DNA of 64,000 bases, taken from the NCBI RefSeq assembly GCF_025149915.1, contig NZ_CP102278.1, forward strand, positions 558,001-622,000. The letters run 5' to 3'. The position numbers and the translations under genes were made by a program. This document shows, one piece after another, positions 6,404-27,861 of the stretch. How positions within the stretch are numbered: the first letter of the stretch is position 1; every line of letters starts with the position of its first letter. Under the pieces are notes generated by a model, which had not been told where the DNA came from, searched no databases, and was given only the letters and a program-made list of their open reading frames with translations. This DNA comes from Coprococcus eutactus (lineage in GTDB: Bacteria; Bacillota; Clostridia; Lachnospirales; Lachnospiraceae).

Positions 6404-7837
6404 ATGATAAAGCATAAAATATGTAAAATCCTTCTTGTTATACTGGCAATTTTTTTATGTGCGGCTTTTTATGAATTGCTCGGAATCTGCGTTGCATATA
6501 AAAAGCAGCCGGAAGTGTCCAATACAACCAAAAAAGAAACAAAAAATGGGTCATGGAACGAATGCAGTGAAAATACAGAACGGGCAGTAATCATAGAAAA
6601 GAATCCAGAAGCGCTTTTACAAAGAGTGCGTTTGATCAAGAATGCAAAAAAGGAAATTATTCTTTCTACTTTTGCATTTCAATCCGATGAAAGTGGAAAA
6701 GTGATTTTAGGAGCACTGCATGATGCGGCAGACAGAGGTGTACATATTCGTCTGTTAGTAGATGGAATGGAGAGCTGGATTGATATGGAAGGAAATCCGT
6801 ATTTCTATGGATTATCTTCCCATGAGAATGTTGAAATTAAACTGTATAATAAGGCCAATCCGTTGAAACCGTGGAAAATGATGGGTAGAATGCATGATAA
6901 ATATTTGATTGCAGATGGAAAGCGATATATTCTTGGGGGAAGAAATACACACAATTATTTCCTGGGTGATTTTCCGGGACATAAGAACTATGACAGAGAC
7001 GTGTTAGTGGTTTGCGATGAACCTGAGAAAGAAAATTCAGTTAACCAGTTGTCAGAGTATTTTGAAACTATATGGAATCAGGAAGACAGTGGTTATTTTC
7101 ATAACAATAAAAAACTGGCAAATAGAAAATCTGTAAAGAACGCAGTTTTAGAGCTGCAGAACAGCTATCAGAAATATTTTGAGGAGAATAAGGAAAGAAT
7201 CTGCGAGACCGATTATACGGACGAAACTTTTGAGACAGAAAAGATTACATTAGTGTCAAATCCTATTCACACAGGTTCCAAAGAACCAGTAGTGTGGTAT
7301 CAGTTGGGAGAATTGATGAAAAATGCAAAAAATCGTGTGAAGATCCACACGCCATATATTATCTGTAATGATATGATGTATAATACATGGGAGGAGATTG
7401 CAGAGAACGTTTCAGATTTTTCTATCATGACAAATTCAGTTGCGAATAATAGGAATCCATTTGGGTCTGCCGATTATGCGAAAAACAGAAATAGAATCTT
7501 AAGTACAGGAATTAATATCTGGGAATATGAAGGCGGTTATTCATACCACGGAAAAAGTATTCTGATTGACGATGATCTGTCTGTAATAGGTTCATTTAAT
7601 ATGGACATGAGAAGTGCATATCTGGATACGGAACTGATGCTTGTAATACGCAGTAAAGATATTAATAAACAGTTGGAAGAGGGCATGATGGAATATGAAA
7701 GAGTGTCCCGACAGGTATTGGAAGATGGAACCTATCGTGATCCGTATCATGTAGAGCCAATTGAATTGACAAAGAAGCGTCAGAGAAACGTACTTTTGGT
7801 ACAGCATCTGCTTGGATGGGCAAGATATCTGTTCTGA
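6404..7837 (+). CDS. phospholipase D-family protein, cardiolipin-synthase-like
   Basis: A 477-residue PLD-superfamily protein with an N-terminal membrane anchor (about residues 8-30) and two HKD catalytic motifs: H164-K166-D171 in MHDKYLIAD and H381-K383-D388 in YHGKSILIDD, each followed by the family's GGRN or GSFNMD signature. Two intact HKD motifs imply phosphatidyl transfer or hydrolysis through a phospho-histidine intermediate at the outer membrane face. Its arrangement resembles the YmdC/ClsC-like branch rather than classical ClsA, which has two helices. It begins a tight operon with a response regulator, kinase and FUSC-like protein, pointing to an envelope-stress role. Confidence 0.87.
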   Translation: MIKHKICKILLVILAIFLCAAFYELLGICVAYKKQPEVSNTTKKETKNGSWNECSENTERAVIIEKNPEALLQRVRLIKNAKKEIILSTFAFQSDESGKVILGALHDAADRGVHIRLLVDGMESWIDMEGNPYFYGLSSHENVEIKLYNKANPLKPWKMMGRMHDKYLIADGKRYILGGRNTHNYFLGDFPGHKNYDRDVLVVCDEPEKENSVNQLSEYFETIWNQEDSGYFHNNKKLANRKSVKNAVLELQNSYQKYFEENKERICETDYTDETFETEKITLVSNPIHTGSKEPVVWYQLGELMKNAKNRVKIHTPYIICNDMMYNTWEEIAENVSDFSIMTNSVANNRNPFGSADYAKNRNRILSTGINIWEYEGGYSYHGKSILIDDDLSVIGSFNMDMRSAYLDTELMLVIRSKDINKQLEEGMMEYERVSRQVLEDGTYRDPYHVEPIELTKKRQRNVLLVQHLLGWARYLF

Positions 7838-14050: not shown

Positions 14051-14848
14051 ATGATAAATTTAGTGGCACTTCCGTGCCTCTGTGTAGATGTTTTTGATGG
14101 AACAGATGAATTGCGTGCAGGTGGTGAAGCCCTTAATTTTGCAGTTCATGCATCAAAATTTGAGGAGTTTAATGTTTCAATATTGGGTGCGGTTGGACAG
14201 GATTCCTATGCAAAATTTATTATGGATTCTGTTTCTGATAAGAGAATAGATGTAAGCCATGTAAGAGTTGAAGAGGATAAAGTAACTGCAAATAATCGTA
14301 CATATCTTACGGCTGACGGTGACAGATATTACAAAGATGATTCATGGACGGGTGATATTGTTGATAAAATGATATTGAATCAAGATGAATTGGACTTTAT
14401 AAAAAAATCAGAGGTTGTATTTATACATTTCTGGGCAGGCTGTTTTGAACAAATTATAGATTTAAAAAAGAATAATAACTTCAGATTGGCTGTGGATTTT
14501 GTAGAATATCGTAATTTTAAGGAGATGGAAAAATATGCACCATATATAGATTATTTCCTGATTAGTGGAGAGGAATCAATTCTTCCGATATTTGAAGCAT
14601 TTTCCAAGAAGTATAAAGGACTATTTAATGCATCTTTAGCTGATAAAGGAAGTGTTACATATTATAATGGTGAAAAGTATTTTGTCCCAGCTGATGAAGC
14701 TTTAGAAATAGTTGATACTACTGGTTGCGGAGATAGCTACCATGCAGGCTTTGTGTGTTCTCATATGTTAACAGGTGATATTTACGAGGCTATGAGAGTT
14801 GGTACAGAATTTGCAACAGAGACATTGTCTCATTATGGTGGCTTTTAA
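14051..14848 (+). CDS. PfkB-family carbohydrate kinase, fructoselysine-6-kinase-like
   Basis: A 265-residue ribokinase-family kinase. The C-terminal PfkB signature DTTGCGDSYHAGF is at 222-234 with catalytic base D228, and an N-terminal GG pair (about 24-25) near the substrate pocket is present. Length and sequence style (short N-terminus MINLVALPCLCVDVF) resemble FrlD-type kinases that phosphorylate fructoselysine or related sugar amines. No deglycase, transporter or regulator accompanies it, so the substrate is open. GGGAGG lies seven bases before the ATG. Confidence 0.8.
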   Translation: MINLVALPCLCVDVFDGTDELRAGGEALNFAVHASKFEEFNVSILGAVGQDSYAKFIMDSVSDKRIDVSHVRVEEDKVTANNRTYLTADGDRYYKDDSWTGDIVDKMILNQDELDFIKKSEVVFIHFWAGCFEQIIDLKKNNNFRLAVDFVEYRNFKEMEKYAPYIDYFLISGEESILPIFEAFSKKYKGLFNASLADKGSVTYYNGEKYFVPADEALEIVDTTGCGDSYHAGFVCSHMLTGDIYEAMRVGTEFATETLSHYGGF

Positions 14849-15198: not shown

Positions 15199-15465
15199 AT
15201 GTGGACAATAAAGAGAATAGACGAGGCAGATTTTGGCTGTGAGGAGAGACTTCCGGGTGAACCGCTGATGGTGCTGGTGAGCCTGGAGAGCGATGACGGG
15301 AGAACTATACAGTTTGAGGCTGCGGACAACTGGCTTACAGTTCAGGAACTTTCTGAGGGTGATGAGTGGCCGGAGGACATAGAGACGCCAGATGCGGCTG
15401 ATGAGAGAACAGCCAGGCAGATTCAGTGGATGGAGAATTATTTTGATGCTCTGGAGGAACTGTAA
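15199..15465 (+). CDS. small acidic protein of unknown function
   Basis: An 88-residue, strongly acidic cytosolic protein (Asp/Glu-rich throughout, ending MENYFDALEEL) preceded by GAAGAGGTG. Its codon use matches neighbouring chromosomal genes, and a single beta-rich domain is suggested by the pattern around MVLVSLESDDGRTIQFEAAD. No membrane segment, signal or motif allows a function to be given. It stands alone between terminators and the LysR gene. Confidence 0.6.
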   Translation: MWTIKRIDEADFGCEERLPGEPLMVLVSLESDDGRTIQFEAADNWLTVQELSEGDEWPEDIETPDAADERTARQIQWMENYFDALEEL

Positions 15466-15884
15466 CAATAAAATAACATATCGTATCACTTGTCATGCAG
15501 GAGCAGATAAGTGCAAATGATGCGAGGGCGTGTGTGATGGTTGTCATGCTTTTAATGATTCCTGTGTGGTGGAATGTAATCAGGCAGCTCCTGGGTTGTT
15601 GAGAAAGATGTCGATTCAGACCAGGTGTAGAATGATAACAGTAGCGGGAGAGTACAAGATCGGAAAATGCAAGTCAGGAAGGTGTAAGATCAGAAGAGCC
15701 GTTGACAAAGAGCGAGGTAAGAACCCTGTATGTGTTTGCGGAGAAGCTCTATGCAGTTGGAAGTGCTATGAAAATAAAGATCAGACTGAAGCTCAGATAT
15801 GGTATGTAGACAAAATCTGCAGTAACGGATTTAATTATTCATAATAAAATAAAGTTATCCCGCATGATTTCTTAGTTTAGAAAA
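15466..15884 (+). other. gene-poor stretch
   Basis: No convincing gene. A 104-codon frame (15530-15844) is open but lacks a ribosome site, uses a Cys/Lys/Arg-rich composition unlike real proteins here, and overlaps other open frames on the opposite strand. No hairpin with a T-run was found. Confidence 0.5.
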
Positions 15885-15913
15885 TTGTGCTTAAAATACT
15901 AAAAAGATATACT
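15885..15913 (+). promoter_or_regulatory. promoter of the LysR gene
   Basis: TTGTGC (15885-15890) and TATACT (15908-15913) have the ideal 17-bp spacing; the LysR ATG lies 36 bases further on. Confidence 0.6.
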
Positions 15914-15948
15914 ATATGCATAACTATACCGAAAAGGAATGATGGCAT

Positions 15949-16845
15949 ATGGATATAAGAGATATGAATTATTTTTTACAGATAGCGGAGTATGAGAACA
16001 TATCGAAGGCGGCTGAGGAACTACACATTTCACAGCCGCCGCTCAGCAGGCAGCTCAGAAAGCTGGAGGAGGAACTGGGCGTGGAATTGTTCACGAGGGA
16101 TAACGGCAGGCTGCAGCTCACGGAGGCCGGGCACTTTTTCAGGGAGAGGGCGCAGGAGGTCATATCGTTGGTGGACAAGACCAGAAGCCAGATGGCGGAG
16201 AGGTACAATGGAGCCGGAGGCAAGATAAGGATAGGGACTATAGAGACCTTAAGTGCAGAGAAACTTCCGAAATGGGTGGCAGGATTTCATGAGATTTATC
16301 CAGATGTGACTTATCAAATAGTGAACAACAATTCCGAGGAGATCATACGGATGGTGGACAAGGGGCTGCTTGATATGGGAATTGTGAGGGAGCCTGTGAA
16401 CAGCCAGTATTATGAGAGAGTAAGGCTTCAGGAGGATACATGGATCGCATATATACCTAACAGAAATCCTCTGTCGCAGAAGAACAGGACAACGATAGAG
16501 ATAGAGCTTGCGGATCTCAGAGACGAACCGCTTATACTTCCGTCGAGGGGAATACACGAGAAGCAGATAAAGACGTGGTTTGAGATGATAGGCGCCGAGC
16601 CGAAGGTTGTATGCTGGTATTCGTCTCTGGTAAATGGTGTGTCTCTCGTCAAAAATGGCATAGGGACAATGCTCTGCCCAAAGTCTGCGCAGTCCATTCT
16701 GGATTACAGCTGTGCTGCCGTGAAGGAGATTGTGAATCCTACCATGACAACGGGATCGGTAATCGTGTGGAAGAACTTCCACAATCTGTCAGAGTCTGCA
16801 AGAAAGTTTATAGATTACGTGAAGTCGAAGGAGATAAAAGAATAA
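15949..16845 (+). CDS. LysR-family transcriptional regulator
   Basis: A 298-residue LTTR. The N-terminal winged HTH (1-60) is canonical: MDIRDMNYFLQIAEYENISK, then AAEELHISQPPLSRQLRKLE. The remaining 200 residues form the two-lobed periplasmic-binding-like effector domain. It is most like the CynR/BenM-style regulators by its HTH and by the IGTIETL opening of the effector domain. It sits directly upstream, in the same direction, of a seven-gene catabolic/transport operon, and two related dyads plus a strong promoter occupy the gap, so it very likely controls that operon in response to a substrate or intermediate. Confidence 0.93.
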   Translation: MDIRDMNYFLQIAEYENISKAAEELHISQPPLSRQLRKLEEELGVELFTRDNGRLQLTEAGHFFRERAQEVISLVDKTRSQMAERYNGAGGKIRIGTIETLSAEKLPKWVAGFHEIYPDVTYQIVNNNSEEIIRMVDKGLLDMGIVREPVNSQYYERVRLQEDTWIAYIPNRNPLSQKNRTTIEIELADLRDEPLILPSRGIHEKQIKTWFEMIGAEPKVVCWYSSLVNGVSLVKNGIGTMLCPKSAQSILDYSCAAVKEIVNPTMTTGSVIVWKNFHNLSESARKFIDYVKSKEIKE

Positions 16846-16874
16846 CTAAAAGAATAGGTAAAATAACAGATGCC

Positions 16875-16920
16875 ATACCTGCAAGGTATACATACGCGGA
16901 CTGCATATCTGCCAGGGTAT
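16875..16920. promoter_or_regulatory. two related dyads, candidate LysR-type operators
   Basis: ATACCTGCAAGGTAT (16875-16889) is a perfect dyad with a three-base centre. ATATCTGCCAGGGTAT (16905-16920) is a second, degenerate copy whose centre is about 30 bp, or three helical turns, away. Both lie within 70 bp upstream of the -35 box at 16942, the standard layout for LysR activation sites. Confidence 0.55.
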
Positions 16921-16941
16921 AGAAAATTGAAAAATGGTGAT

Positions 16942-16970
16942 TTGACAATCTATACGAGCACTGATATTAT
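16942..16970 (+). promoter_or_regulatory. promoter of the PrpD operon
   Basis: Perfect TTGACA (16942-16947), 17-bp spacer, TATTAT (16965-16970). Start of transcription should be near 16977, giving a leader of about 110 bases with a terminator-like hairpin inside it. Confidence 0.7.
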
Positions 16971-17004
16971 GTGCCCAACGAAAACGAAATGCAGTTGATC
17001 AGGC

Positions 17005-17040
17005 AAAGGAGCCACTCTTTAGGGAGAGGCTCCTTTTCTT
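17005..17040 (+). terminator. leader hairpin, possible attenuator
   Basis: AAAGGAGCC (17005-17013) pairs with GGCTCCTTT (17028-17036) and a T-rich tail follows. Because it lies downstream of the promoter at 16942-16970 and upstream of the first gene, it would act in the leader RNA; alternatively it terminates read-through from the LysR gene. Confidence 0.55.
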
Positions 17041-17086
17041 TATATCTGACAGCCGCTGTATTTTAACAAAGGCAGGAGGAAAGAAT

Positions 17087-18385
17087 ATGCATGATATGAG
17101 ACGATATGTTACAGATCAGATCAAGTGGATAAAACAAATGTCTTATGAAGATATACCAGATGAAATAAAGACTAGGGCGAGATGGATCCTGCTGGATTCC
17201 GTGGGCTGTATAGTGAACGGAATGTCGGGGGATAAGCTTCCACCAGATATATATGAGGCGGTGCTGAAAAGTTCGTCGGCTATGGTGTCGACAGAGCTTT
17301 ATGAGGGAAACAGATTTTCTATAGGGCATCCGGCATGTCACATAGTTCCGCTACTCTTGGTTGAAGCTGGAGAGAGAGCAGATCTTACATATAAAGATGC
17401 TTTAAGGATTTTCATTTGTGCATATGAGCTTGCATCAAGGTGGGGGCGTTCGGTTAGATTTACAAATGACATGTTGGGGCACGGAACCATCATGAATGCT
17501 GGGGCGGCGGTTGTGGAAGGGCTCATGACTGACATGACTGAGGAGAAATTTGTAAATTACCTCATGACATGCGAAGTGCTCCCGGAGGTATCGACGTGGC
17601 AGTCGGTATTTGAGGGAAGTACAATACATGACTATTATCCTGGAATCGCGGCGGTAAATGCCAAGAATGCACTTTACATGTCAAACAACAATGTGAAGAG
17701 CAGTGAGGAACTGATAAGAAGCGTGTACGGGAAGATAACAGGAACAAAAGTCATAGAGGACAATCTGGCTGATGACGATGACATAGGCTGGTACATAGCG
17801 AAGAATTATTTCAAGGTACATTCAGGATGCAGATTCATACACCCATTTGTGGATGTGATAGAACAACTGATGAAGGAAGGGCTCACCAAGGAGGATGTGA
17901 AGGAGATACAGGTATCTACATATAAGAAAGCGGCAATGATCTCAGATCAGCATGTGACAAATGTTCTGGCGGCGAAATTCTCTACGCCGGTATCGTTGGC
18001 TATCCAGTTGTCGGAGGGGCGTTTATATCCCGAAGATATAGAGAGGGCGCTGCATAATAAAAGTGACATTCAGGAGCTGGCATCAAAAATTTCTCTAAGG
18101 GAGGATGACAGATATAACGAACTGCTTCCGGATGTCCGGGGCGGAATGGTGAGAGTCGTAAAGAATGACGGGCAGGTGATAGAGAGGGAGGTATTCCATG
18201 CGCATGGTGATTTTGATGATCCGGCCGGATATACAGAGAGACAGCTCACGGACAAGTTCCGGAGTGTGACGGAGCGGTGCTTAAGCACCACACAGCAGGA
18301 AGAGATTATAGAGAGTATATTGAGGGGCAGTGATGAACTTACAGTGCAGGAGATTTTCAGGACATATTTTGAATGTGTCAGATAG
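17087..18385 (+). CDS. MmgE/PrpD-family protein
   Basis: A 432-residue protein of the MmgE/PrpD fold, which includes 2-methylcitrate dehydratase, cis-aconitate decarboxylase and iminodisuccinate epimerase. Family features are the N-terminal helical domain with WILLDSVGCIVNGM, the FICAYELASRWGRS stretch, and KNYFKVHSGCRFIHPFVD, where H and the CRFIHP segment line the active site. There is no methylcitrate synthase or lyase nearby, so propionate metabolism is unlikely. Strong AGGAGG before the ATG. It is the first gene of the operon; the next starts nine bases after its stop. The reaction here is unknown. Confidence 0.88.
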   Translation: MHDMRRYVTDQIKWIKQMSYEDIPDEIKTRARWILLDSVGCIVNGMSGDKLPPDIYEAVLKSSSAMVSTELYEGNRFSIGHPACHIVPLLLVEAGERADLTYKDALRIFICAYELASRWGRSVRFTNDMLGHGTIMNAGAAVVEGLMTDMTEEKFVNYLMTCEVLPEVSTWQSVFEGSTIHDYYPGIAAVNAKNALYMSNNNVKSSEELIRSVYGKITGTKVIEDNLADDDDIGWYIAKNYFKVHSGCRFIHPFVDVIEQLMKEGLTKEDVKEIQVSTYKKAAMISDQHVTNVLAAKFSTPVSLAIQLSEGRLYPEDIERALHNKSDIQELASKISLREDDRYNELLPDVRGGMVRVVKNDGQVIEREVFHAHGDFDDPAGYTERQLTDKFRSVTERCLSTTQQEEIIESILRGSDELTVQEIFRTYFECVR

Positions 18386-18394
18386 GAGGAGATT

Positions 18395-19510
18395 ATGAGC
18401 AAGACAGAGTTTCTGTTTTTGTCAGAGGACGACCTTGTGAAAGCAGGGGTACTGAATGCTTCGGAATGTATAGATACCTGCGAGGAGGTATTTGGCATAC
18501 TGAGTGATGGAGATTACCTTATGGGTGGGCTGAATCACAATGAACACGGACTGTCCATTGTGTTCCCAAAGGAAACAAGATTTCCTGGGATGCCGGTGGC
18601 AGGACCGGAGAGAAGATTTATAGCGATGCCGGCATATCTGGGAGGTGATTTTCATGTGTGCGGAGAGAAGTGGTACGGATCAAATGTAGAAAATCCGGGA
18701 CACAGAGGACTTCCGAGATCAGTACTTATGATAACCTTGAATGATCCGGAGAGCTGTGAGCCGATCTCGTATATGTCGGGCAACCTGATAAGTTCCATGA
18801 GAACGGGATGTATTCCAGGGGTGTTCCTCAGATATTTCGGAAATAAGGATGCGAGGACAGCGGCACTCATTGGAACCGGACCGGTTCAAAGGGCAACGGT
18901 GCTTGCCATACATTCGGTTTTGCCTGGAGTACAGAAAATATACTGTAAGGCGGCACATATAGAGCATGCCGAGAAATTTGCAGAGTGGGTGAAACAGGAG
19001 ACCGGAATTAATGCGGAGGCTGTTTTATCCATGGAAGAATGCATAGCTGCGGGAGATGTGGTGAGCATAGCAGCTTCACCAAAGGATCCACTCTATATAA
19101 AGAATGAATGGATAAAGGACGGCGCATGTGTACTGCTGACATCCCCGATAGAAGCGGATGATGATTTCTGGTTGAAAAATGGGCTGTGCTTTGACAACAC
19201 GAAAATGCACATGGCTTACTACGACGAGGCGCTGGGAGTTGGAAGTATACTCAAGGCGAACAACGGCTGGGGAAAAATGTATAAGCTCATGGAGGACGGT
19301 CTTATGCCTGATCTCCGTTCCCAGATAAGTATGGGGGATGTGGTCAGAGGAAAGGCTGATGGCAGAATAGAGCATGACAGAAAAGAGATATTTGTGACAA
19401 GCGGGCAGGTGCTGTTTGACCTGGCATGGGGCTATAGGCTCTATCAGAAGGCGCTTGGATCAGGTGAAGGAACAAGATTGAAGATATGGGATGACCCATG
19501 TTGGAAATAA
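18395..19510 (+). CDS. ornithine cyclodeaminase/mu-crystallin family protein
   Basis: A 371-residue NAD(P)-binding protein of the ornithine cyclodeaminase/mu-crystallin family. The substrate half has SSMRTGCIPGVFLRYFG (usually SxRTaA.s), followed by the dinucleotide-binding loop AALIGTGPVQRATVLA. The normal GxGxQa fingerprint reads GTGPVQ. Members deaminate or reduce cyclic imino or alpha-amino acids; this long version resembles those labelled tyramine oxidase subunit B in clostridial genomes, a label with little experimental support. AGGAGG precedes it; it is tightly packed between the PrpD and nitrilase genes. Confidence 0.87.
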   Translation: MSKTEFLFLSEDDLVKAGVLNASECIDTCEEVFGILSDGDYLMGGLNHNEHGLSIVFPKETRFPGMPVAGPERRFIAMPAYLGGDFHVCGEKWYGSNVENPGHRGLPRSVLMITLNDPESCEPISYMSGNLISSMRTGCIPGVFLRYFGNKDARTAALIGTGPVQRATVLAIHSVLPGVQKIYCKAAHIEHAEKFAEWVKQETGINAEAVLSMEECIAAGDVVSIAASPKDPLYIKNEWIKDGACVLLTSPIEADDDFWLKNGLCFDNTKMHMAYYDEALGVGSILKANNGWGKMYKLMEDGLMPDLRSQISMGDVVRGKADGRIEHDRKEIFVTSGQVLFDLAWGYRLYQKALGSGEGTRLKIWDDPCWK

Positions 19511-19605
19511 ATAAAAGATACCAGAGGAAGAATCAAAGAAAAATTCAAAGAATGGGACAGAGAAAGCAAAGAGACAAAAAGAGAAGAAAGAGAGGCGTAT
19601 GTATT

Positions 19606-20442
19606 ATGAACAAAAAGATTTTTAAGGCGGCAGCGGTGAACATGGATTGTGAACTTGGAAATGTGAAGGCAAATCTTAAGAAGATGGCGGATTTCTGTAA
19701 GGAGGCATCGACCAAGGGTGCACTTGCCATATGTTTTCCTGAACTGGCAACGACAGGATACAGTCCGACAATACTTGGTGAGAAATACTACGAGATATCA
19801 GAGCCGATACCGGGACCTTCAACAAACTATCTGTGCAAGGTGGCAAAGGCAACAGGACTCTATATCGTGACAGGTATCTCAGAAAAGAGCGGTGTGCCGG
19901 GAAGACTTTACAATTCACAGATAGCGATATCTCCGGAGGGGAAGATCGTCAGCATTTACCGCAAGATACATGTATGGGGACTTGAAAAGCTCACATGGAG
20001 AGAGAGCATAACGTGCGAATATGGAACATTTGACATGCCGATGTGCAAGGCTGGACACATGATATGCTATGATACCTCATTCCCGGAGACAGCCAGAGTA
20101 TTGTCACTCATGGGAAGCAATGTGATATTTGACTCGGCTGCATGGAGAAATCTTGAAGCTGATATATGGGAACTCAACACGAGAGCCCGTGCAGTGGAAA
20201 ATCATGTGTTCATGATCTGTTCAAACAGATGTGGTGTGGAGGGGGATTCCACTCTCAACGGTGAGAGCAGGATCATAGGACCAAGAGGAAATGTCCTTGC
20301 GGCAGCAGGTCATGAGGAGGAGATCATTTACGCAGATATAGATATAGATTCCTGTATCAAGGACAATGCGATGATGCTCTCATATATGAAAGACAGAAGA
20401 CCGGAGGCATATTCACTTATATCAGATACAAGAAACTTTTAG
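19606..20442 (+). CDS. nitrilase-superfamily carbon-nitrogen hydrolase
   Basis: A 278-residue amidohydrolase with the complete catalytic triad E46 (CFPELATTGY), K120 (YRKIHVWG) and C154 (ICYDTSFPE). It should hydrolyse an amide, carbamoyl amide or nitrile through a cysteine thioester in the cytosol. The frame is open upstream to 19498, overlapping the previous gene, but that extension is Arg/Lys/Gln-rich and unlike the family; ATG 19606 after AGAGAGG gives a normal N-terminus. Subfamily resembles N-carbamoyl-amino-acid or omega-amidase types. Likely to release ammonia from the operon's substrate. Confidence 0.88.
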   Translation: MNKKIFKAAAVNMDCELGNVKANLKKMADFCKEASTKGALAICFPELATTGYSPTILGEKYYEISEPIPGPSTNYLCKVAKATGLYIVTGISEKSGVPGRLYNSQIAISPEGKIVSIYRKIHVWGLEKLTWRESITCEYGTFDMPMCKAGHMICYDTSFPETARVLSLMGSNVIFDSAAWRNLEADIWELNTRARAVENHVFMICSNRCGVEGDSTLNGESRIIGPRGNVLAAAGHEEEIIYADIDIDSCIKDNAMMLSYMKDRRPEAYSLISDTRNF

Positions 20443-20485
20443 TAAGACAGAGGTTTCTGGGGAAGCTGAGAAAGGATGTATACAT

Positions 20486-21094
20486 ATGGCAAATGATATT
20501 TATATAGTGACGATCCAAAGACAGTTTGGAAGTCTTGGACGTCCGATAGCGAAGAAGTTATCTGAGATATTGCAGATTGAATATTACGACAGGGATATTG
20601 TGGAGCTTGCCAGCAGAGAGATGAATAAGTCCAGGGAGGAGCTCTCAGATTATGACGAGAAATCCTATTCTAAGATGAAGTATCCGATGGGCATAGGAAC
20701 TCCAAAGATGCAGAATTATTTGTTCAGCGTTCAGCAGTGCATCATTTCGGAGATCGCGACGTATGACAAGTCTTGCATCATAGTCGGAAGATGTTCTGAT
20801 TACATACTGAGACACCTGAAAAATACGATCAATATATTTATATATGCCCCATATGAGAAACGACTGAAGAACTGTATAGAGGTTCTCGGTATGAATGAAA
20901 ATGAGGCGAAGGATATGATAGCAAAGGTTGACAGGGCGAGAGACAATTATCACCAGTATTATACGGGAATGCCGGCGGCAACCATAAATGGCAGACAGAT
21001 AATGATAGACTCCAGTTTCGTCGGCGTTGAGCACACTGCGGAGATGCTGGCGGATATGATAAAGAAGAGAGTCGCGATGGGTTTTGAAGAATAG
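20486..21094 (+). CDS. cytidylate-kinase-like family protein
   Basis: A 202-residue P-loop protein of the cytidylate-kinase-like family. The N-terminus ITIQRQFGSLGRPIAKKLSE-like sequence (actual start MANDIYIVTIQRQFGSLGRP) is the family's modified phosphate loop, followed by YYDRDIVELA and a central CIIVGRCSDYIL. Such proteins occur in many Clostridia, often beside transporters, and no substrate is established; they are unlikely to be the housekeeping CMP kinase. It lies 43 bases after the nitrilase gene and 23 bases before the ABC ATPase gene in the same operon. Confidence 0.85.
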   Translation: MANDIYIVTIQRQFGSLGRPIAKKLSEILQIEYYDRDIVELASREMNKSREELSDYDEKSYSKMKYPMGIGTPKMQNYLFSVQQCIISEIATYDKSCIIVGRCSDYILRHLKNTINIFIYAPYEKRLKNCIEVLGMNENEAKDMIAKVDRARDNYHQYYTGMPAATINGRQIMIDSSFVGVEHTAEMLADMIKKRVAMGFEE

Positions 21095-21117
21095 TGCGAT
21101 AACGGGAGGTGGCAACC

Positions 21118-21906
21118 ATGGAAGGTGCACTGGATACCAACAGAAAAAAAGCAATTGAGATAAAAGGTCTCGGCAAGAAATATGAAAGTTTCAACGATGG
21201 AGAAAGTCAGTATGTTTTGCGGGATATCAATATAGACGTCATGGAGAATGAATTTGTGTGTGTGCTCGGACCATCCGGCTGCGGAAAGTCGACACTGCTC
21301 AATCTGATATCCGGTTATATCAAACCTTCTGATGGTGAAATAGATATTTTCGGTGAAAAGGTCACTAAGGCAAGTGGCAGAGCGGGAATGGTATTTCAGG
21401 AACACGCTCTCATGCCGTGGCTCACGGTCAAGAAAAATATTATGATGGGACCGAAACTGCATCACAAGAGCAAAGAAGAATGTGAGAAGATCGCAAAGAA
21501 ATACATAGATATGGTTGGACTTGGCGGTATAGAGGACTACTATCCGAGACAGCTGTCAGGCGGTATGGCGCAGCGAGTTGGAATTGCGAGGGCTCTGGCA
21601 AATGAACCAAAGATCATCTTAATGGACGAGCCGCTCGGAGCACTGGATGCCATGACAAGGGAAAATATGAGAAGAGAGCTTCTGAAAATATTTCAAAAGA
21701 CCCAGATCACCATATTTTTTATCACCCACTCCGTGCAGGAGGCTGTGTATCTGGCAGACAGGGTGATCGTGTTGAAGAATGCAGCTGTTGACTGTGATGT
21801 AAAGATTGAACTGGACAGACCAAGAGATATGAAATCCCCGGATTTTGCAAAGTATATTGAGTATTTTGAAAAGAGGCTGGGTGACATACCTCTGACGAGT
21901 GATTGA
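21118..21906 (+). CDS. ABC importer ATPase, NitT/TauT type
   Basis: A 262-residue ABC ATPase. Walker A GPSGCGKST (51-59), Q-loop MVFQEHALMPWLTV (91-104), signature LSGGMAQR (146-153), Walker B ILMDEPLGALD (167-177) and the switch histidine in FFITHSVQEA are all present. The VFQEHALMPW and LGALDAMTR stretches are typical of the SsuB/TauB/NrtD branch for sulfonates, nitrate, pyrimidine precursors and similar small molecules. ATG 21118 follows GGGAGG; the earlier GTG is inside that site. Works with the permease and binding protein encoded next. Confidence 0.94.
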   Translation: MEGALDTNRKKAIEIKGLGKKYESFNDGESQYVLRDINIDVMENEFVCVLGPSGCGKSTLLNLISGYIKPSDGEIDIFGEKVTKASGRAGMVFQEHALMPWLTVKKNIMMGPKLHHKSKEECEKIAKKYIDMVGLGGIEDYYPRQLSGGMAQRVGIARALANEPKIILMDEPLGALDAMTRENMRRELLKIFQKTQITIFFITHSVQEAVYLADRVIVLKNAAVDCDVKIELDRPRDMKSPDFAKYIEYFEKRLGDIPLTSD

Positions 21907-21916
21907 GGTGGCAGAT

Positions 21917-22717
21917 ATGAAGAAAAAGAAAAGAAATAAAAAAGAACTTATATTGAGTATCACATCACTGATCCTGTTTTTTGCGATATGGCAGATAGTT
22001 ACACAGATGAACCAGATGCATGAGTGGTTCAATCCAAAGTTCCTTCCGGCTCCCACAGATATCATCAAAAAGGCAGTGGAATATGCTGGTGATGGCACGC
22101 TGTGGCTGCACGCTTCCGTATCAATTAGGAGAATACTGCTGGGATTTCTGATAGGTGGAGTTTTGGCGATAACGGTTGGAATTATATTTGCAAATCAGAA
22201 ACTTGTGGAGGCATGGTTTTCACCGATCATCAATCTGCTCGGACCTATCCCGCCATACGCACTCCTTCCTATCATAATAATATGGTTTGGAATCGGAGAG
22301 TCGTCGAAGATAGGACTTATTGCATATTGTACATTTATGACTATGCTGCCATACATAACCGATGGTCTAAAGAATACACCACCGGTTCTGATACGTGCGG
22401 CGACTTCCCTGGGGGCAACGCAGTTCCAGATATTTACACGGGTTATGCTTCCAAACGCCGTACCGAATATATTTGTCGGAATGAAGGTCACACTGGCAAT
22501 GACATTCGGAGCACTCATGGTATCAGAGATGCTGGGCGCATCAAAGGGGCTTGGATATATGATCATCAATGCAAAGCAGTGGTTTAAGATGGACGATATG
22601 TTCCTGGCGATCATAATGATCGGTCTGATCTACATAATAATGTTCAGTATAATACAGTTTGTCGAGCATATAGTGCTCAAATGGAAGACAGATGTTACAA
22701 ATGCCATCGAAAAGTAA
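21917..22717 (+). CDS. ABC importer permease, NitT/TauT type
   Basis: A 266-residue inner-membrane permease with six predicted helices and the binding-protein-dependent transport signature (EAA loop) at RAATSLGATQFQIFTRVMLP-like sequence. A basic start MKKKKRNKKELILSITS gives a cytoplasmic N-terminus. ATG 21917 follows GAGGTGG ten bases after the ATPase stop. It forms the homodimeric channel of the importer. Confidence 0.93.
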   Translation: MKKKKRNKKELILSITSLILFFAIWQIVTQMNQMHEWFNPKFLPAPTDIIKKAVEYAGDGTLWLHASVSIRRILLGFLIGGVLAITVGIIFANQKLVEAWFSPIINLLGPIPPYALLPIIIIWFGIGESSKIGLIAYCTFMTMLPYITDGLKNTPPVLIRAATSLGATQFQIFTRVMLPNAVPNIFVGMKVTLAMTFGALMVSEMLGASKGLGYMIINAKQWFKMDDMFLAIIMIGLIYIIMFSIIQFVEHIVLKWKTDVTNAIEK

Positions 22718-22814
22718 CGGCATTTCTGACATACAAAAGCAGAAGTAGTATAAGTGCTTATCAACAACTGGAAGCTCAGGGCTTTTCAGAAAAGGTCAAA
22801 ATAAGGAGGATACT

Positions 22815-23888
22815 ATGATGAAAAACAGAAGATTATCGAAGAAAGTCGTAAGTGTACTTACAGTTGCAGCCATGGGAATGGCTCTTCTGACAGGCTGTGG
22901 AGATTCAGGAAAAAGCAGCGGAACAACGGCTGCATCGTCTGATGATGGAGGTCTGATACCGGTCACAATATATGGTGTCACGGATCCACAGGAGGCTGCA
23001 CAGATAGTAATAGCAAAAGAAAAAGGCTATTTTGAGGAGGAGGGTCTGGATGTCACAAACAAGCTCATCGAGTCTAGTTCGGATCTCCCGGCATATATAG
23101 CAAGCGGTGAGGCTCCGGTATCAGCCGAGTCGCAGTATACCTGTACCGAGGTTGCAGCACAGGGCGTTAAGCTTAAGACCTTGATGACGAACAGCAATAC
23201 TTCAAATACACAGGGACTGATACTTGGTAAAGGTCAGACTATCAAGAGTGCAAAGGATCTTGAGGGCAAAAAATTGGGTATCATGAATGGCGCAGGATTC
23301 ATGCTGGCAATACAGAATATGTGTGAGGAAATGGGTGTCGACATAAATAAGATAGACATAGTATACTTGTCTCCATCAGAGCAGGTCGCAGCTCTTGAGA
23401 ATGGTTCGATAGATATGATGGCATGCTGGGAGCCTTATATGAGTCAGGCACTTGATGCCGGAGGGACCCTGCTGTTTACCGGTGTAAAGTCATACTTCCC
23501 TGAGAAGACAGGCGACGTAGACTGGTTGAATTTCTATTCAACATTTGAGGTTACAGAAGATTACTACAATGAGAACAGAGACACATGTGTCAAACTTGTC
23601 AAGGCAATGACAAAGGCAACTGACTATATCAATGCCAATCTCGACGAGTGCGCGGGAATAATTGCGAAGGAGTTGAACAACGACAAGGATGCCATATATG
23701 CGATCATGGCTCAGAATACATACGAAAATATCTTCGATGACACATTTGAAAAGGCTGTAAATGACATGGCCCAGTACATGAAGGATGCCGGAAATATCGA
23801 TAATGTACCGGATTTTAATAGTTACTGTGACCCATCAGTATTGAAAGAGGTAAAGCCGGAGAATGCGACATACGAACCATCGAAGTAG
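22815..23888 (+). CDS. substrate-binding lipoprotein of NitT/TauT ABC importer
   Basis: A 357-residue lipoprotein: signal peptide with lipobox LLTGC (lipidated C28), a Ser/Thr/Gly linker, then the NMT1/SsuA-like bilobed domain beginning IPVTIYGVTDPQEAAQIVIA. The family's typical motifs AKEKGYFEEEGLDV and DLEGKKLGI are clear. It would deliver the ligand to the permease. Ligand class (thiamine precursors, sulfonates, taurine, amino-acid derivatives) cannot be fixed from sequence, but the catabolic neighbours favour an amide- or amine-containing small molecule. It is the last clear gene of the operon. Confidence 0.93.
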   Translation: MMKNRRLSKKVVSVLTVAAMGMALLTGCGDSGKSSGTTAASSDDGGLIPVTIYGVTDPQEAAQIVIAKEKGYFEEEGLDVTNKLIESSSDLPAYIASGEAPVSAESQYTCTEVAAQGVKLKTLMTNSNTSNTQGLILGKGQTIKSAKDLEGKKLGIMNGAGFMLAIQNMCEEMGVDINKIDIVYLSPSEQVAALENGSIDMMACWEPYMSQALDAGGTLLFTGVKSYFPEKTGDVDWLNFYSTFEVTEDYYNENRDTCVKLVKAMTKATDYINANLDECAGIIAKELNNDKDAIYAIMAQNTYENIFDDTFEKAVNDMAQYMKDAGNIDNVPDFNSYCDPSVLKEVKPENATYEPSK

Positions 23889-23976
23889 AAGGCATGCTCT
23901 TTAGATAATATTTTATATGGATATACAAGAATAGGCTTTTGCGTCATTTATATAATTGGCGTGAAAGCTTATTTTT

Positions 23977-24538
23977 ATGCAAGTGATGGCAGTGGTAGCG
24001 ATAATAGGACTGGTTCTTTTATCAAAGAAAGCAAACGTGGCAAATACCGTGATGGGAATAGGATTTATCCTGAGTATAGCAACCTACATATGTGGCGGGT
24101 TTGGAACAACTGTGAAGATGTTGTGGAATGTAGCCAGATGGGGCTGGGTATTCTTTCCATTTTCAATCAGCGTATTAGCATTTGTAGTTACACTTTGATT
24201 TGGCGTAGCTGCAGTGATATGGGGCACGATCCTTATGGGGATCTCATTTGCCGACAGTTTTGAGCTGTCATTATCGATATTTACGTGTATCGTGCTTGCG
24301 CTGGCAACGATAAAGGGCGTCAAGATACTTGGTGGGAAAAAGACGGCCATGATGAGCTTTCTGATTTTGATTGCAGGAATAGTGGGATATATGTGCGACG
24401 GATTGAATGCAGCAGAGATTGCTGCTGGTGGCATTGATAGTTATAATCCTTGCGGTTGTGGTCATATTCAGAAATCAGCTTTCAACAATCGTGAAGACTG
24501 CCGGTAGCAAGGTTGTGAAGTGGATAAATGCGAATTAG
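23977..24538 (+). pseudogene. disrupted hydrophobic protein with Flp-pilin-like tail
   Basis: One frame encodes a multi-helix membrane protein from about 23977, interrupted by TGA at 24196 but continuing in the same frame (FGVAAVIWGTILMGISF) to about 24420. There a one-base shift is needed to continue into LLVALIVIILAVVVIFRNQL and a basic end, stopping at 24538. The last 35 residues look like the single helix of Flp1-type pilins. No start with a good ribosome site was found. Either a decayed gene or two decayed genes run together; function lost. Confidence 0.45.
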
Positions 24539-24804: not shown

Positions 24805-25983
24805 ATGAAAAGCAGATTGACGAGAAAAGAAATGCTTCCACTTGTGGGAATGACTGTTTCGGCGTTCATATTCAACACATCGGAGTTTATGCCGATTGGC
24901 TTGCTGACCGACATCGCGAAGTCGTTCAGCATATCAGAGTCGAAGGCAGGAATGCTTATAACAGTATATTCATGGATAGTCATGCTGCTGTCCCTCCCAC
25001 TAATACTTCTGGTGTCGAAGATCGATTTCAGAAAATTGTTCATGGGAACGATCGCATTGTTTGGAATATGTCAGATCATGTCGGTGCTTGCACCGAGCTA
25101 TGGAGTGCTCATGGCGTCCCGAATCGGTGTTGCCTGCACCCATGCGATATTCTGGTCCATAGCATCGCCGGTGGCGATAAGACTGGTAAATGAGGAACAC
25201 AGGTCATTTGCACTCAGCATGGTCGTAACAGGAACCTCCATAGCGACCATAGCCGGACTGCCGCTTGGAAGACTTGTGGGACAGTATATGGGATGGAGAG
25301 TTACGTTTCTCATTGTCGGAATCATAGCGTTTGCAGTGCTCGTATATATGGCGTTTGTTTTCCCGAAGATAGCGAGCGGAGAGCAGTTCCATGTAAAGGA
25401 TCTTCCGGCACTCCTGAAGAATCCGGTGCTCATCTGTCTGTATGTCCAGACCATACTTTTTGTGCTTGGATATTACACAGTTTACAGTTATATAGAACCA
25501 TTCATGCAGCAGGTCGCAAAGCTGCAGAACAATGTCATAACCATAGTGCTCCTGATATTTGGTGCCACGGGACTTCTTGGAAGTTATCTGTTTTCAAAGC
25601 TGTATGACAGACATAGATTTGCATTTATAGGTACAGTTATGGCTACGCTTCTTGCATGGTTGCTGCTTTTGCTTCCAGCATCAAAGAGCCTGGCAACTAT
25701 GGTCATTCTCTGTGCATTCTGGGGAATCACGGCCATGGCGTTTAACGTAACTACTCAGTCGGAGGTCATCAGAAGTGTGGATGAGAAGGGGGCTGCCGTG
25801 GCGACAGCCATATATTCCGGACTTTTCAATCTTGGAATCGGAGGTGGAAGCTGGATCGGCGGAATAGTGTGTGACAAAGGTGCGATATCGTATATAGGAT
25901 TTGTGGGTGCGGTATTTGCGGTTATATCAGTTCTATTCTTTGCATTTGTACTTCTAAGAAAATTGAGACAGAGTGTGAACTGA
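24805..25983 (+). CDS. MFS efflux transporter, SotB/AraJ-like
   Basis: A 392-residue major facilitator with twelve predicted helices. The start EMLPLVGMTVSAFIFNTSEF and MPIGLLTDIAKSF match the DHA1 sugar-efflux/drug branch (SotB, AraJ, YdeA), where the FxxxTxEFxPxGLL motif is diagnostic. The conserved GxPLGRxxGxxxGWR motif between helices 4 and 5 is present (GLPLGRLVGQYMGWR). Exports sugars, arabinose or drugs in relatives; substrate here unknown. AAGGAAGAGG precedes the ATG. Monocistronic, with a terminator after it. Confidence 0.9.
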   Translation: MKSRLTRKEMLPLVGMTVSAFIFNTSEFMPIGLLTDIAKSFSISESKAGMLITVYSWIVMLLSLPLILLVSKIDFRKLFMGTIALFGICQIMSVLAPSYGVLMASRIGVACTHAIFWSIASPVAIRLVNEEHRSFALSMVVTGTSIATIAGLPLGRLVGQYMGWRVTFLIVGIIAFAVLVYMAFVFPKIASGEQFHVKDLPALLKNPVLICLYVQTILFVLGYYTVYSYIEPFMQQVAKLQNNVITIVLLIFGATGLLGSYLFSKLYDRHRFAFIGTVMATLLAWLLLLLPASKSLATMVILCAFWGITAMAFNVTTQSEVIRSVDEKGAAVATAIYSGLFNLGIGGGSWIGGIVCDKGAISYIGFVGAVFAVISVLFFAFVLLRKLRQSVN

Positions 25984-26027
25984 CAGCGTATTTGCATATA
26001 ATTAAATGTAATTGAAATATAATGGCG

Positions 26028-26087
26028 CGGCAGTGCTGACGTACAGGTTCGGTTTTGAACATGACATGTCAGGACTGCCGTTTTTTT
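26028..26087 (+). terminator. intrinsic terminator of MFS gene
   Basis: CGGCAGTGCTGAC (26028-26040) pairs with GTCAGGACTGCCG (26068-26080), with one bulge, followed by seven T. Confidence 0.8.
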
Positions 26088-26107
26088 AGTAAGTTTCAAA
26101 TAATAGG

Positions 26108-26170
26108 TTGACAAATTATCAAAATGATAATATCATGTAAACAACTTGCAGATATTATCAAAATGATAAT
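26108..26170 (+). promoter_or_regulatory. NAD-salvage promoter with two NrtR-like operators
   Basis: TTGACA (26108-26113) and TATCAT (26131-26136) are 17 bp apart. A perfect palindrome ATTATCAAAATGATAAT occupies the spacer (26115-26131), and an identical 17-base copy lies at 26154-26170, centre-to-centre 39 bp. A repressor bound to the first would block RNA polymerase directly. The operon downstream encodes an NrtR-like NUDIX-winged-helix protein, so it is the obvious ligand. Confidence 0.7.
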
Positions 26171-26334
26171 AATGGCAATAGTGATGACGCATGTAGATGT
26201 ACTTATATGTTTTATAAGGAATCTGTGCCTTTGGGGATTTCCTCATGGAAGCAGATAGCAGAAAATTGAAAATCGAAAATTTACCAATCAAAAATTTTAA
26301 GTTGATAGTTGAATGGAGAAGGAGAAGAAGAATT

Positions 26335-26850
26335 ATGGACAAAAACAAGAAAAAGACACTTATAGTAGTTGACATGCAGAATGATTTCATCGATGGAGCA
26401 CTCGGGACAAAGGAGGCTGTTGCCATCGTGGAGAATGTGAAAAATAAGATAAAAGAGTATGCTGACCGCGGGGATGAGATCATCTTCACAAGGGATACGC
26501 ATTATGAGAACTACATGGAAACCAACGAGGGAAAGCATCTTCCGGTTCCTCACTGTATAGAGGAGACCAAAGGCTGGGAGATCGCAGATGGTCTTGAGGT
26601 TCCGGACGCTATATACATCAACAAGACCAGCTTTGGATATACAGGCTGGGGAGACTTTGATCTTCAGGATGTTGAGATGGTCGGACTCTGCACAGACATT
26701 TGTGTTGTGTCCAATGCACTCATCATAAAGGCGCTGTACCCTGAGATAAGTGTGAAGGTTGATGCGAGGTGCTGTGCCGGAGTGACGCCGGAGAGTCATG
26801 AGGCTGCGCTTGCCACCATGTCGATGTGTCAAGTGGATATAATCAGATAA
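26335..26850 (+). CDS. pncA: nicotinamidase (isochorismatase family)
   Basis: A 171-residue isochorismatase-fold hydrolase. The catalytic triad D13 (VVDMQNDF), K97 (INKTSF) and C123 (CTDICVVSNA) is intact, with a metal-site D53/H56-like cluster in FTRDTHYENY and the family's PHC motif. It should deamidate nicotinamide to nicotinate for the Preiss-Handler route. The ATG at 26335 follows GGAGAAGGAG; the frame is open further upstream but without a site. First gene of the NAD salvage operon under the palindromic operators. Confidence 0.9.
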   Translation: MDKNKKKTLIVVDMQNDFIDGALGTKEAVAIVENVKNKIKEYADRGDEIIFTRDTHYENYMETNEGKHLPVPHCIEETKGWEIADGLEVPDAIYINKTSFGYTGWGDFDLQDVEMVGLCTDICVVSNALIIKALYPEISVKVDARCCAGVTPESHEAALATMSMCQVDIIR

Positions 26851-26883
26851 CGACGGAAATGTACAGGAGGATGAAGCAGACTT

Positions 26884-27861
26884 ATGAAGACATATGAGAC
26901 GAGTGACGAAGAGAAGAAATTCTTCGCCGGATATGATCTGACGAAATATGACAGGCCATCTGTTGCCGCGGATGTGGTTGTATTTTCAGTTATGAAGGAT
27001 GACGAGTGCAAGGATGTAAGAAGACTTCAGGAGAAGAAGCTCAAGATACTCCTGATAAGAAGAGGTGGATTTCCATATAAAGGATGCTGGGCTATGCCTG
27101 GTGGGTTCTGCAAAAAGGGAGAGGATGTCATAGATTCAGCCAGAAGAGAGCTTTGCGAAGAGACAGGTATAGACGATGCATATGTAAAGCTTGTCGGAGT
27201 GTATGGCGAGCCGGGCAGAGATCCGAGAGGCTGGGTCATATCATCAACTTATATGGCACTTATGAATGCCAGAGCCTGTCATCTGAAGGCAGGAGATGAT
27301 GCACAGGATGCGAGATGGTTTACGGTTGAACTGACAGATGTTTCAACAGAGATGTCAGGTGCAGGTGGACATTCTGTGAACGAGATGTCAACAAAGGTGT
27401 CAGGCACAGGCGAAGAAATTGTTAAAAATGAAGATGAAGCTTCACGTAAAGTCCAAAATGAGAAAAGATACAGGCTGGTTCTCAAGGATGCAGATTCTGA
27501 TATAAAACTTACGGCAGTGTTGCGCAGAACAGATATGAGCTCATGTGGACGAAGCTCGGACAGTTACGATATAGAGGAATGTGAAGGACTGGCATTTGAC
27601 CATGCAAGGATCATAACAGAAGCGGTGCTCGGACTGCGGGAGGATGTCAGGAGAGACATGAAGCTGGCATTTGACCTGCTGCCGGAGAGATTTACACTTA
27701 CTGAGCTTCAGAATGTATATGAACAGATATGGGACATGGAACTCACCACACCTAACTTCAGAAGAAAGATTGCGGAATATGTTGAGGAGACTGATGCATA
27801 TCAGGCCGGTGAGAGATACAGACCTGCCAAATTATTCAGGCGCAGGACAGACGTAAGATAA
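26884..27861 (+). CDS. nrtR: NrtR-like regulator: NUDIX domain plus winged helix
   Basis: A 325-residue protein with an N-terminal NUDIX domain (about 25-160) and a C-terminal winged helix (about 230-320, with HARIITEAVLGLREDV and FTLTELQNVYEQIW). This pairing defines the NrtR family of NAD-metabolism repressors, whose NUDIX part senses ADP-ribose or related nucleotides. The Nudix box is complete here (G74, E80, R88-E89, E92-E93, G95), so hydrolase activity may remain. About 70 residues of low-complexity insertion (about 150-215) separate the domains, longer than usual. Sits between pncA and pnuC. Confidence 0.85.
   Translation: MKTYETSDEEKKFFAGYDLTKYDRPSVAADVVVFSVMKDDECKDVRRLQEKKLKILLIRRGGFPYKGCWAMPGGFCKKGEDVIDSARRELCEETGIDDAYVKLVGVYGEPGRDPRGWVISSTYMALMNARACHLKAGDDAQDARWFTVELTDVSTEMSGAGGHSVNEMSTKVSGTGEEIVKNEDEASRKVQNEKRYRLVLKDADSDIKLTAVLRRTDMSSCGRSSDSYDIEECEGLAFDHARIITEAVLGLREDVRRDMKLAFDLLPERFTLTELQNVYEQIWDMELTTPNFRRKIAEYVEETDAYQAGERYRPAKLFRRRTDVR

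Follow-up and report, generated by a model that had tools for sequence, protein, structure and literature searches.

A conserved LysR-linked operon combining PrpD-, ornithine cyclodeaminase- and nitrilase-family enzymes with an ABC importer in Coprococcus eutactus

Several described systems resemble parts of the operon reported here, an eight-gene locus of Coprococcus eutactus in which a LysR-type regulator precedes an MmgE/PrpD family enzyme (PrpD), an ornithine cyclodeaminase/mu-crystallin family dehydrogenase (OCD), a nitrilase-superfamily C-N hydrolase (Nit), a cytidylate-kinase-like (CMPK-like) protein and a NitT/TauT-type ATP-binding cassette (ABC) importer. It lies in a 64,000-nucleotide stretch (NZ_CP102278.1, positions 558,001 to 622,000; hereafter the window, to which all coordinates refer) of a 3.11 Mb genome assembled as one contig. 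Its PrpD has a fold in common with 2-methylcitrate dehydratase PrpD and cis-aconitate decarboxylase; iminodisuccinate epimerase (PDB 2hp0/2hp3) is 16% identical to it, with the difference that the window protein has Phe for the second-base Tyr and His for a conserved Lys. Of the solved structures, the one whose sequence the PrpD profile matches best is the Bacillus subtilis protein named 'IRG1' (PDB 7bra, E 1.2e-17), which we take to be YxeQ of the S-(2-succino)cysteine operon. If this is right, that operon also has an importer and an amide hydrolase, and the source assigns no function to YxeQ itself (PMC9706529); the other literature drawn on is PMC12290011 and PMC7347537. Unlike the operon in the window, that of B. 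subtilis has a monooxygenase and an acetyltransferase. Each of the families involved is known; their combination is new, and a literature search found no paper with this gene combination or with a link between CMPK-like proteins and importers, most subscription journals lying outside its scope.

All eight genes, spanning 15949–23888 on the forward strand, are open and intact as judged from the reading frames and Pfam, and every one of the proteins scores above the cut-off for at least one Pfam family, so that the gene set and family names given in the original prediction are borne out. The regulator gene lysR (15949–16845; PF00126 and PF03466 above cut-off) is followed by seven structural genes. 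These are prpD (17087–18385, 432 aa; PF03972 and PF19305 at 58.3 and 101.8 bits, cut-off 32.1), ocd (18395–19510, 371 aa; PF02423 at 148.5 bits, cut-off 24), nit (19606–20442, 278 aa; PF00795 at 188.3 bits, cut-off 23.2), the CMPK-like gene (20486–21094; PF13189 at 148.1 bits, cut-off 28), the importer ATPase (21118–21906; PF00005 above cut-off), the permease (21917–22717; PF00528 above cut-off) and an SsuA/THI5-like substrate-binding lipoprotein (22815–23888). The gaps between the seven are 9, 95, 43, 23, 10 and 97 bp. The nit frame opens at 19498, with ATG 19606 as its likely start, and the permease gene has a further GTG upstream at 21899.

The operon is conserved as a unit. A scan with the PrpD profile, one genome per species, gave 53 matched stretches that reduced to nine relatives. 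Two of these, both from Lachnospiraceae (L044 and L045), carry all eight genes in identical order, the binding-protein gene of L044 running off the contig end. It had been proposed that orthologues scattered and never co-occurring would speak against a single pathway; when this was checked, the order was found to be kept in both loci. A Roseburia locus (L046) keeps LysR, OCD and PrpD beside a ribose-type importer, Merdinaster (L047) and Butyrivibrio (L048) loci join PrpD, a CN-hydrolase and a CMPK-like protein to a LIV-type importer, and in the remaining four relatives PrpD stands without a match to OCD, Nit or CMPK at E 1e-5. Within the genus sample, PrpD, a close Nit (at least 95% identity) and the leader described below are all present in the same two of five genomes and absent from the other three, where Nit relatives reach only 27–34%. 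Together with the operator-like site discussed below, these observations support one conserved and probably co-regulated unit, as had been predicted.

The full eight-gene system is rare in the sampled genomes. At E 1e-40 the PrpD is matched in one of 398 genomes of the phylum, its own; at E 1e-25 there are six genomes of the family, namely its own, that of the Merdinaster cluster (L058, the same as L047) and four with weak matches. The four weak loci were not counted as related operons: two (L061 and L062) lie beside aconitase-family and PrpF genes, and two are in other settings. Nit is matched at E 1e-50 in three of 250 family genomes, the window's own included, and at E 1e-60 in its own alone among 166 genomes of the order. 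Among 24 stretches of viral contigs retrieved with the PrpD profile, none was confirmed. Same-size metagenome contigs in the match lists paired PrpD with Nit at sizes 9384 and 41298, and PrpD with the substrate-binding protein at 27123 and 67328; when sizes were jittered, at least two such coincidences arose in 44 of 20000 trials for the first pair and in 752 of 20000 for the second, the comparison using the best 120 of 133 binding proteins, so we regard further linked copies as weakly supported. An apparent OCD–Nit fusion (P0107) was considered as a Rosetta-stone protein and rejected, both halves being cut at the joint and the end being odd, as after a deletion or in an assembly chimera; it does suggest that OCD and Nit are neighbours there. 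In L044, which is from UBA5902, ORFs reading like mobilisation proteins (6742–7540 of that locus) lie 1.3 kb before the operon and may point to its transfer.

The ratio of non-synonymous to synonymous substitution (dN/dS) against L044 is 0.03–0.04 for LysR, the CMPK-like protein, the ATPase and the permease, and 0.083–0.085 for OCD and PrpD. These ratios indicate purifying selection on the six genes that the comparison covers, Nit and the binding protein lying outside it. Against L045, synonymous sites are mostly saturated.

The signals between lysR and prpD are also shared. A sigma-70 type promoter is predicted at 16942–16970 (forward strand; TTGACA-17-TATTAT with a TG before the -10; 11 of 12 positions), at the same position in L044 and L045, and the TTGACA is found in L046 as well. 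The number of promoter-like matches over 15400–24500 is no more than chance (26, where shuffles give 20.2 with a standard deviation of 5.2), and this one is the best in the region. As a prediction, then, the single strong promoter proposed ahead of the seven structural genes stands. Downstream of lysR, at 16875–16889, lies a predicted LysR-type operator-like site without strand assignment, ATACCTGCAAGGTAT. It recurs behind lysR at 12 of 12 positions in L044 and at 11 of 12 in both L045 and the Roseburia locus, the window's own 12 of 12 being given by construction, as its site served as the consensus. It is thus present in all four loci that hold LysR, OCD and PrpD, starting 67 bp before the TTGACA in the window and in L044, 45 bp in L045 and 47 bp in L046. 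Shuffles of the intergenic regions, which preserve single letters only, reached these scores in 0 (L044), 0 (L045) and 1 (L046) of 2000 trials. The pattern itself is not rare (five matches in the five genus genomes, two of them in the window's own, against 14 for the reversed control pattern), and the case for the site therefore rests on its place and conservation. LysR is 84–96% identical in the two full operons and 55% identical in Roseburia; as the importer there is different, the regulator seems to be tied to the OCD–PrpD pair. A second, weaker operator-like site, ATATCTGCCAGGGTAT, again without strand, aligns at 16905–16920 in the window and in L044 and is absent from L045. A half-conserved operator-like site, ATACCGAAAAGGAAT, is also found just before lysR (15926–15940), and both L044 and L045 have a similar sequence; because this site overlaps the ribosome-binding site, its conservation may have another cause.

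Between the promoter and prpD, a leader at 16972–17041 (forward strand) stands out in the alignment to L044 and L045, with 64 of 70 compared bases (91%) identical to each (3 gap columns with L044, 9 with L045). The ribosome-binding site is 86–93% identical and the other lysR–prpD stretches 68–85%, and six genes compared with L045 are 73–82% identical in DNA. The leader occurs once in each of the two genus genomes that have the operon and in none of the other three; its pattern was not found in viral contigs. Upstream of the prpD ribosome-binding site it contains a terminator-like hairpin followed by a T-rich run (17005–17036, forward strand), and the segment 16976–17086 folds at -32.3 kcal/mol (z -3.3). 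L045 retains this hairpin, whereas in L044 it is disrupted (-13.4 kcal/mol), and the Roseburia locus has a different hairpin and T run ahead of its first structural gene. There is also a possible, unproven 25-codon leader ORF (16989–17066, forward strand; MQLIRQRSHSL...), whose start and first codons are common to L044 and L045; its end differs from theirs and it has no clear ribosome-binding site. The leader may act as an attenuator, encode a leader peptide or be a small RNA. No Rfam 15 family matched it at the gathering score, so that it corresponds to no known riboswitch in that collection; a SCARNA7 match at 21141–21307, inside the ATPase gene and below the gathering score, was taken as chance.

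These shared features bear on whether there is a pathway at all. The operon could serve transport, joined by salvage enzymes that are only loosely related and with no common pathway for PrpD, OCD and Nit: each of the three is found apart in other genomes, Roseburia, Merdinaster and Butyrivibrio have importers of other types, and few full operons were found. Against this stand the gene order kept in three genomes, the co-presence within the genus, and the operator-like site and leader held in common, and we judge the explanation unlikely.

We propose instead, tentatively and with somewhat less than even confidence, that the operon imports and breaks down a small dicarboxylic acid or amino acid in the form of an amide or ureido derivative. 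The proposal draws on the joint presence of an importer, an amide hydrolase, a PrpD of the enolate-forming kind and an OCD that would oxidise a C-N bond, and on hydantoinase-type neighbours of related genes in the Butyrivibrio locus and on two plasmids. The eight genes would then serve to take up a small nitrogen-containing acid and degrade it as a source of nitrogen and carbon. In this scheme an amino-dicarboxylic acid would enter through the ABC importer as its amide or ureido (carbamoyl) derivative, and ammonia would be freed when Nit hydrolyses the amide or ureido bond. PrpD would abstract a proton next to a carboxylate, leading to isomerisation or to elimination of a group. The C-N bond that is left would be oxidised by OCD, with NAD(P)+, to an imine that hydrolyses to a keto acid and ammonia. 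LysR would sense the substrate or an intermediate, bind 16875–16889 and activate the promoter at 16942–16970, switching on the other seven genes, with the leader hairpin acting as a second on/off step ahead of prpD. The reactions, their sequence, the kind of substrate and the regulation are all inferred; families and context make it plausible that import is followed by hydrolysis of an amide and oxidation of a C-N bond.

The active site of PrpD, an enzyme to which the original prediction gave isomerisation or dehydration, fits such chemistry in part. Its Glu70, His81 and Lys243 are invariant in 24 sequences and match family residues Glu91, His102 and Lys266 (numbering of the Pseudomonas aeruginosa methylsuccinate isomerase), the carboxylate-binding and base residues of the MmgE/PrpD family; Glu70 was placed by counting 11 residues back from His81, outside the aligned part. 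A role as 2-methylcitrate dehydratase is not indicated: the protein scores 17.2 bits against the 458 required by model TIGR02330, and the operon holds no methylcitrate-cycle partner, although the LDH His of the solved dehydratase (1szq) aligns with His132 of the window protein. The Merdinaster and Butyrivibrio clusters resemble the operon in having PrpD, CN-hydrolase, CMPK-like protein, LysR and an ABC importer; they differ in the LIV-type importer, in the absence of OCD and in identities of about 27–36%. Further members of the Butyrivibrio cluster, none of which reaches its NCBIfam cut-off, are a DASS-like anion symporter, an isochorismatase-family hydrolase and two enzymes resembling dihydropyrimidinase/allantoinase. 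Among five plasmid regions at PrpD relatives of 26–29% identity, hydantoinase A/B genes occur in two and an Asp/Glu racemase in two (three regions together).

Nit has Glu46, Lys120 and Cys154 at the positions of the Glu-Lys-Cys triad motif. It is far from the cut-off for N-carbamoylputrescine amidase (TIGR03381; 118.7 against 410 bits). Its close family is sharply bounded, with 19 clusters at 60% identity or above (one of them a chimeric ORF) and then a drop to 37%. Two relatives of 37–39% in the family sample adjoin NCS1-type permeases (cytosine/purine/allantoin family), one of them with a PucR regulator and the other with a weakly PuuE-like protein; these neighbours point indirectly to nucleobase- or ureide-type chemistry. 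In sister genome G299 (L076), a CMPK-like gene precedes genes for an antiporter, an amidohydrolase and a nitrilase. As this nitrilase is a true N-carbamoylputrescine amidase (468.7 against 410 bits), the locus was left out of the support for Nit.

A number of observations weigh against the amide/ureido proposal. In PrpD, family Lys202 (K200 in B. subtilis IRG1) is His181 in at least 90% of the 24 sequences, an assignment that rests on the motif MKPLHAG because the chain number is one off the published K200. The second-base Tyr (Y146 of B. subtilis IRG1) aligns with Phe125, and family His152 with Leu130, an invariant His132 lying two residues on. Ring-opening enzymes, recognised by profile in the Butyrivibrio locus and by reading alone in that of Merdinaster, are missing from the operon in the window; of the plasmid regions at PrpD relatives, two that are annotated have no hydantoinase-type enzyme beside the PrpD relative, the one from Variovorax having no hydantoin-type gene, and another is without annotation. 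No Nit was found within the 10 kb read on each side of the Roseburia locus, which therefore places the amide step outside the shared core. Only three full operons were found. OCD relatives are common at E 1e-20 (39 of 299 family genomes, own included), and seven longer stretches around the closest ones (L036–L042) gave no counted PrpD or Nit match, a 42-bit Nit match in L036 being a longer protein that was not counted. Compared with L044, PrpD and OCD also drift at about double the rate of the other genes. Finally, the binding protein is nearest to binders of sulfonate, taurine, bicarbonate and hydroxymethylpyrimidine (HMP), so that a sulfonate would fit as well as a carboxylate.

The last point invites a different explanation, sulfonate scavenging, in which an organosulfonate would be imported and its carbon chain processed by the enzymes. 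The predicted model of the binding protein (predicted local distance difference test, pLDDT, 90.5) has SsuA, CmpA and TauA as its nearest neighbours, and both profile and fold bring it closest to SsuA and TauA. In the predicted structure, this likeness fixes the type of transporter and not its ligand. The protein misses the cut-off of the aliphatic sulfonate binding model (TIGR01728, SsuA_fam; 134.8 against 163.5 bits), the Roseburia operon has a ribose-type importer, and we know of no C-S cleaving enzyme among the Pfam families of the eight genes. Sulfonate scavenging is thus improbable.

OCD raises two further alternatives. The solved structure nearest to it is 4m54, which we take to be SbnB and thus to place the protein close to the SbnB branch of its family, and its best NCBIfam model is tyramine oxidase subunit B (NF004848), whose cut-off it narrowly misses (350.2 against 362 bits); the operon contains no amine oxidase. 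In catabolism of N-alkylated amino acids of the opine or succino-adduct type, OCD would act as a reversed opine dehydrogenase that cleaves a secondary amine oxidatively, PrpD would epimerise the succino carbon in the manner of iminodisuccinate epimerase, and Nit would remove a side-chain amide. However, of the two epimerase bases, His99 and Tyr145, PrpD keeps the His (His81) and has lost the Tyr (Phe125), the SbnB model is matched at only 131 of 327 bits, and cis-aconitate decarboxylase ties equally for PrpD. This explanation ranks next after the amide/ureido proposal, level with the absence of any single pathway, and is likewise unlikely. A biosynthetic operon, in which an SbnB-like OCD and PrpD would convert an imported precursor into an unusual amino acid, would agree with the SbnB likeness and with a major facilitator superfamily (MFS) gene 0.9 kb behind the operon that could export the product. 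Nevertheless, the eight genes include no peptide-bond-forming or partner synthase family, and a LysR regulator with an importer and a hydrolase is a layout typical of catabolism. We consider biosynthesis more improbable even than sulfonate scavenging.

The neighbours of OCD relatives vary on plasmids, which indicates that the subfamily is used in several pathways: of five regions, two (44–45% identity) adjoin an enolase-family protein and a DUF4147 protein, two (36%) adjoin RidA and an FAD-binding oxidoreductase, and one (44%) adjoins neither pair. The two regions with RidA also count in favour of the amide/ureido proposal. A cassette of OCD, enolase-family and DUF4147 genes was seen at L036, L039, L041, L042, L090 and L091; all three are annotated in Rhizobium and Agrobacterium plasmids, and in Lachnospiraceae the partners were recognised by reading ORF starts only. 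At L035 (7762–13413) and L077 (2–3890), the neighbours of OCD paralogues are subunits like those of sarcosine oxidase together with a small Fe-S type protein, recognised by profile in the window's own genome and by reading in G302, a genome of the same genus.

The CMPK-like protein remains to be placed. In its P-loop motif, FGSLGR, Arg stands where we would expect Lys, taking the P-loop Lys motif to be that of active cytidylate kinase. Arg is also found in all 29 relatives read, whereas a paralogue in the window's own genome keeps the Lys. Relatives at E 1e-38 occur in 36 of 299 family genomes, own included, and the 29 loci read, one per genome, were drawn from 45 matches outside the window's own genome. 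An importer gene adjoins the relative in 17 of these 29 (16 by motif, with L102 added). Among 48 same-strand neighbours within 300 bp there are eight ABC ATPases, eight ABC permeases and two binding proteins, along with four class-III aminotransferases, three arginine-deiminase-like proteins and two hydroxyacid dehydrogenases. ABC_tran is found in 8 of the 48 neighbours against 2 of 96 control ORFs; BPD_transp_1, also in 8 of the 48, is not among the 25 of 151 families listed for the control and so has few members there at most. The Fisher p for importer enrichment is about 3e-7 to 2e-6, varying with the number of permeases and binding proteins outside the list that the control is allowed, and the control is imperfect and not random (96 of 141 ORFs kept by eye, from 11 stretches fetched around PrpD, Nit, PF13189 or OCD). 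Across L099–L127, in Lachnospiraceae, amino-acid enzymes and ABC importers of the polar amino-acid type are repeated neighbours of the Arg-P-loop proteins.

Action of the kinase-like protein on a nucleotide-linked intermediate, one of two roles given in the original prediction, finds no support and is set aside, because the 29 nearest examined relatives serve many operons, beside varied importers and amino-acid enzymes, and have no P-loop Lys. The same neighbours and the Arg P-loop favour the other suggested role, a regulatory one. From this sequence evidence the protein is probably no pathway enzyme; it would regulate or assist the importer and have no action on the substrate. The association of Arg-P-loop CMPK-like proteins with importers is the most general new observation made here, and a full-text literature search for Arg-P-loop PF13189 proteins found no Lachnospiraceae paper, mentions of the full name being judged unrelated. 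A bolder and doubtful extension is that in gut Lachnospiraceae these proteins generally accompany importers as pseudokinases that sense nucleotides and adjust operons for uptake and breakdown. The operon in the window would then be a new pathway in which OCD and a PrpD with a remodelled active site degrade an amide- or ureido-dicarboxylate, behind a leader RNA able to stop transcription.

The genes flanking the operon were also read. Upstream, at 14051–14848, is a PfkB-type sugar kinase whose best model is fructoselysine 6-kinase (118 of 247 bits); none was recognised among the ORFs preceding the operon in L044 or L045. Downstream, 24805–27861 holds the MFS transporter, of PRK03545 type and above cut-off. 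Two further proteins encoded there possibly form an NAD-related pair: one has no match in NCBIfam and resembles a nicotinamidase on reading, and the other is a NUDIX protein similar to NtrR (142 of 400 bits).

It is through operons of this kind that gut bacteria gain access to particular small nitrogen compounds of the host or the diet. For this one, the binding protein, the predicted LysR operator and the conserved leader offer testable anchors for substrate screening. Further anchors are an unassigned branch of PrpD, in which active-site residues are altered, and the role that Arg-P-loop proteins of PF13189 may have.

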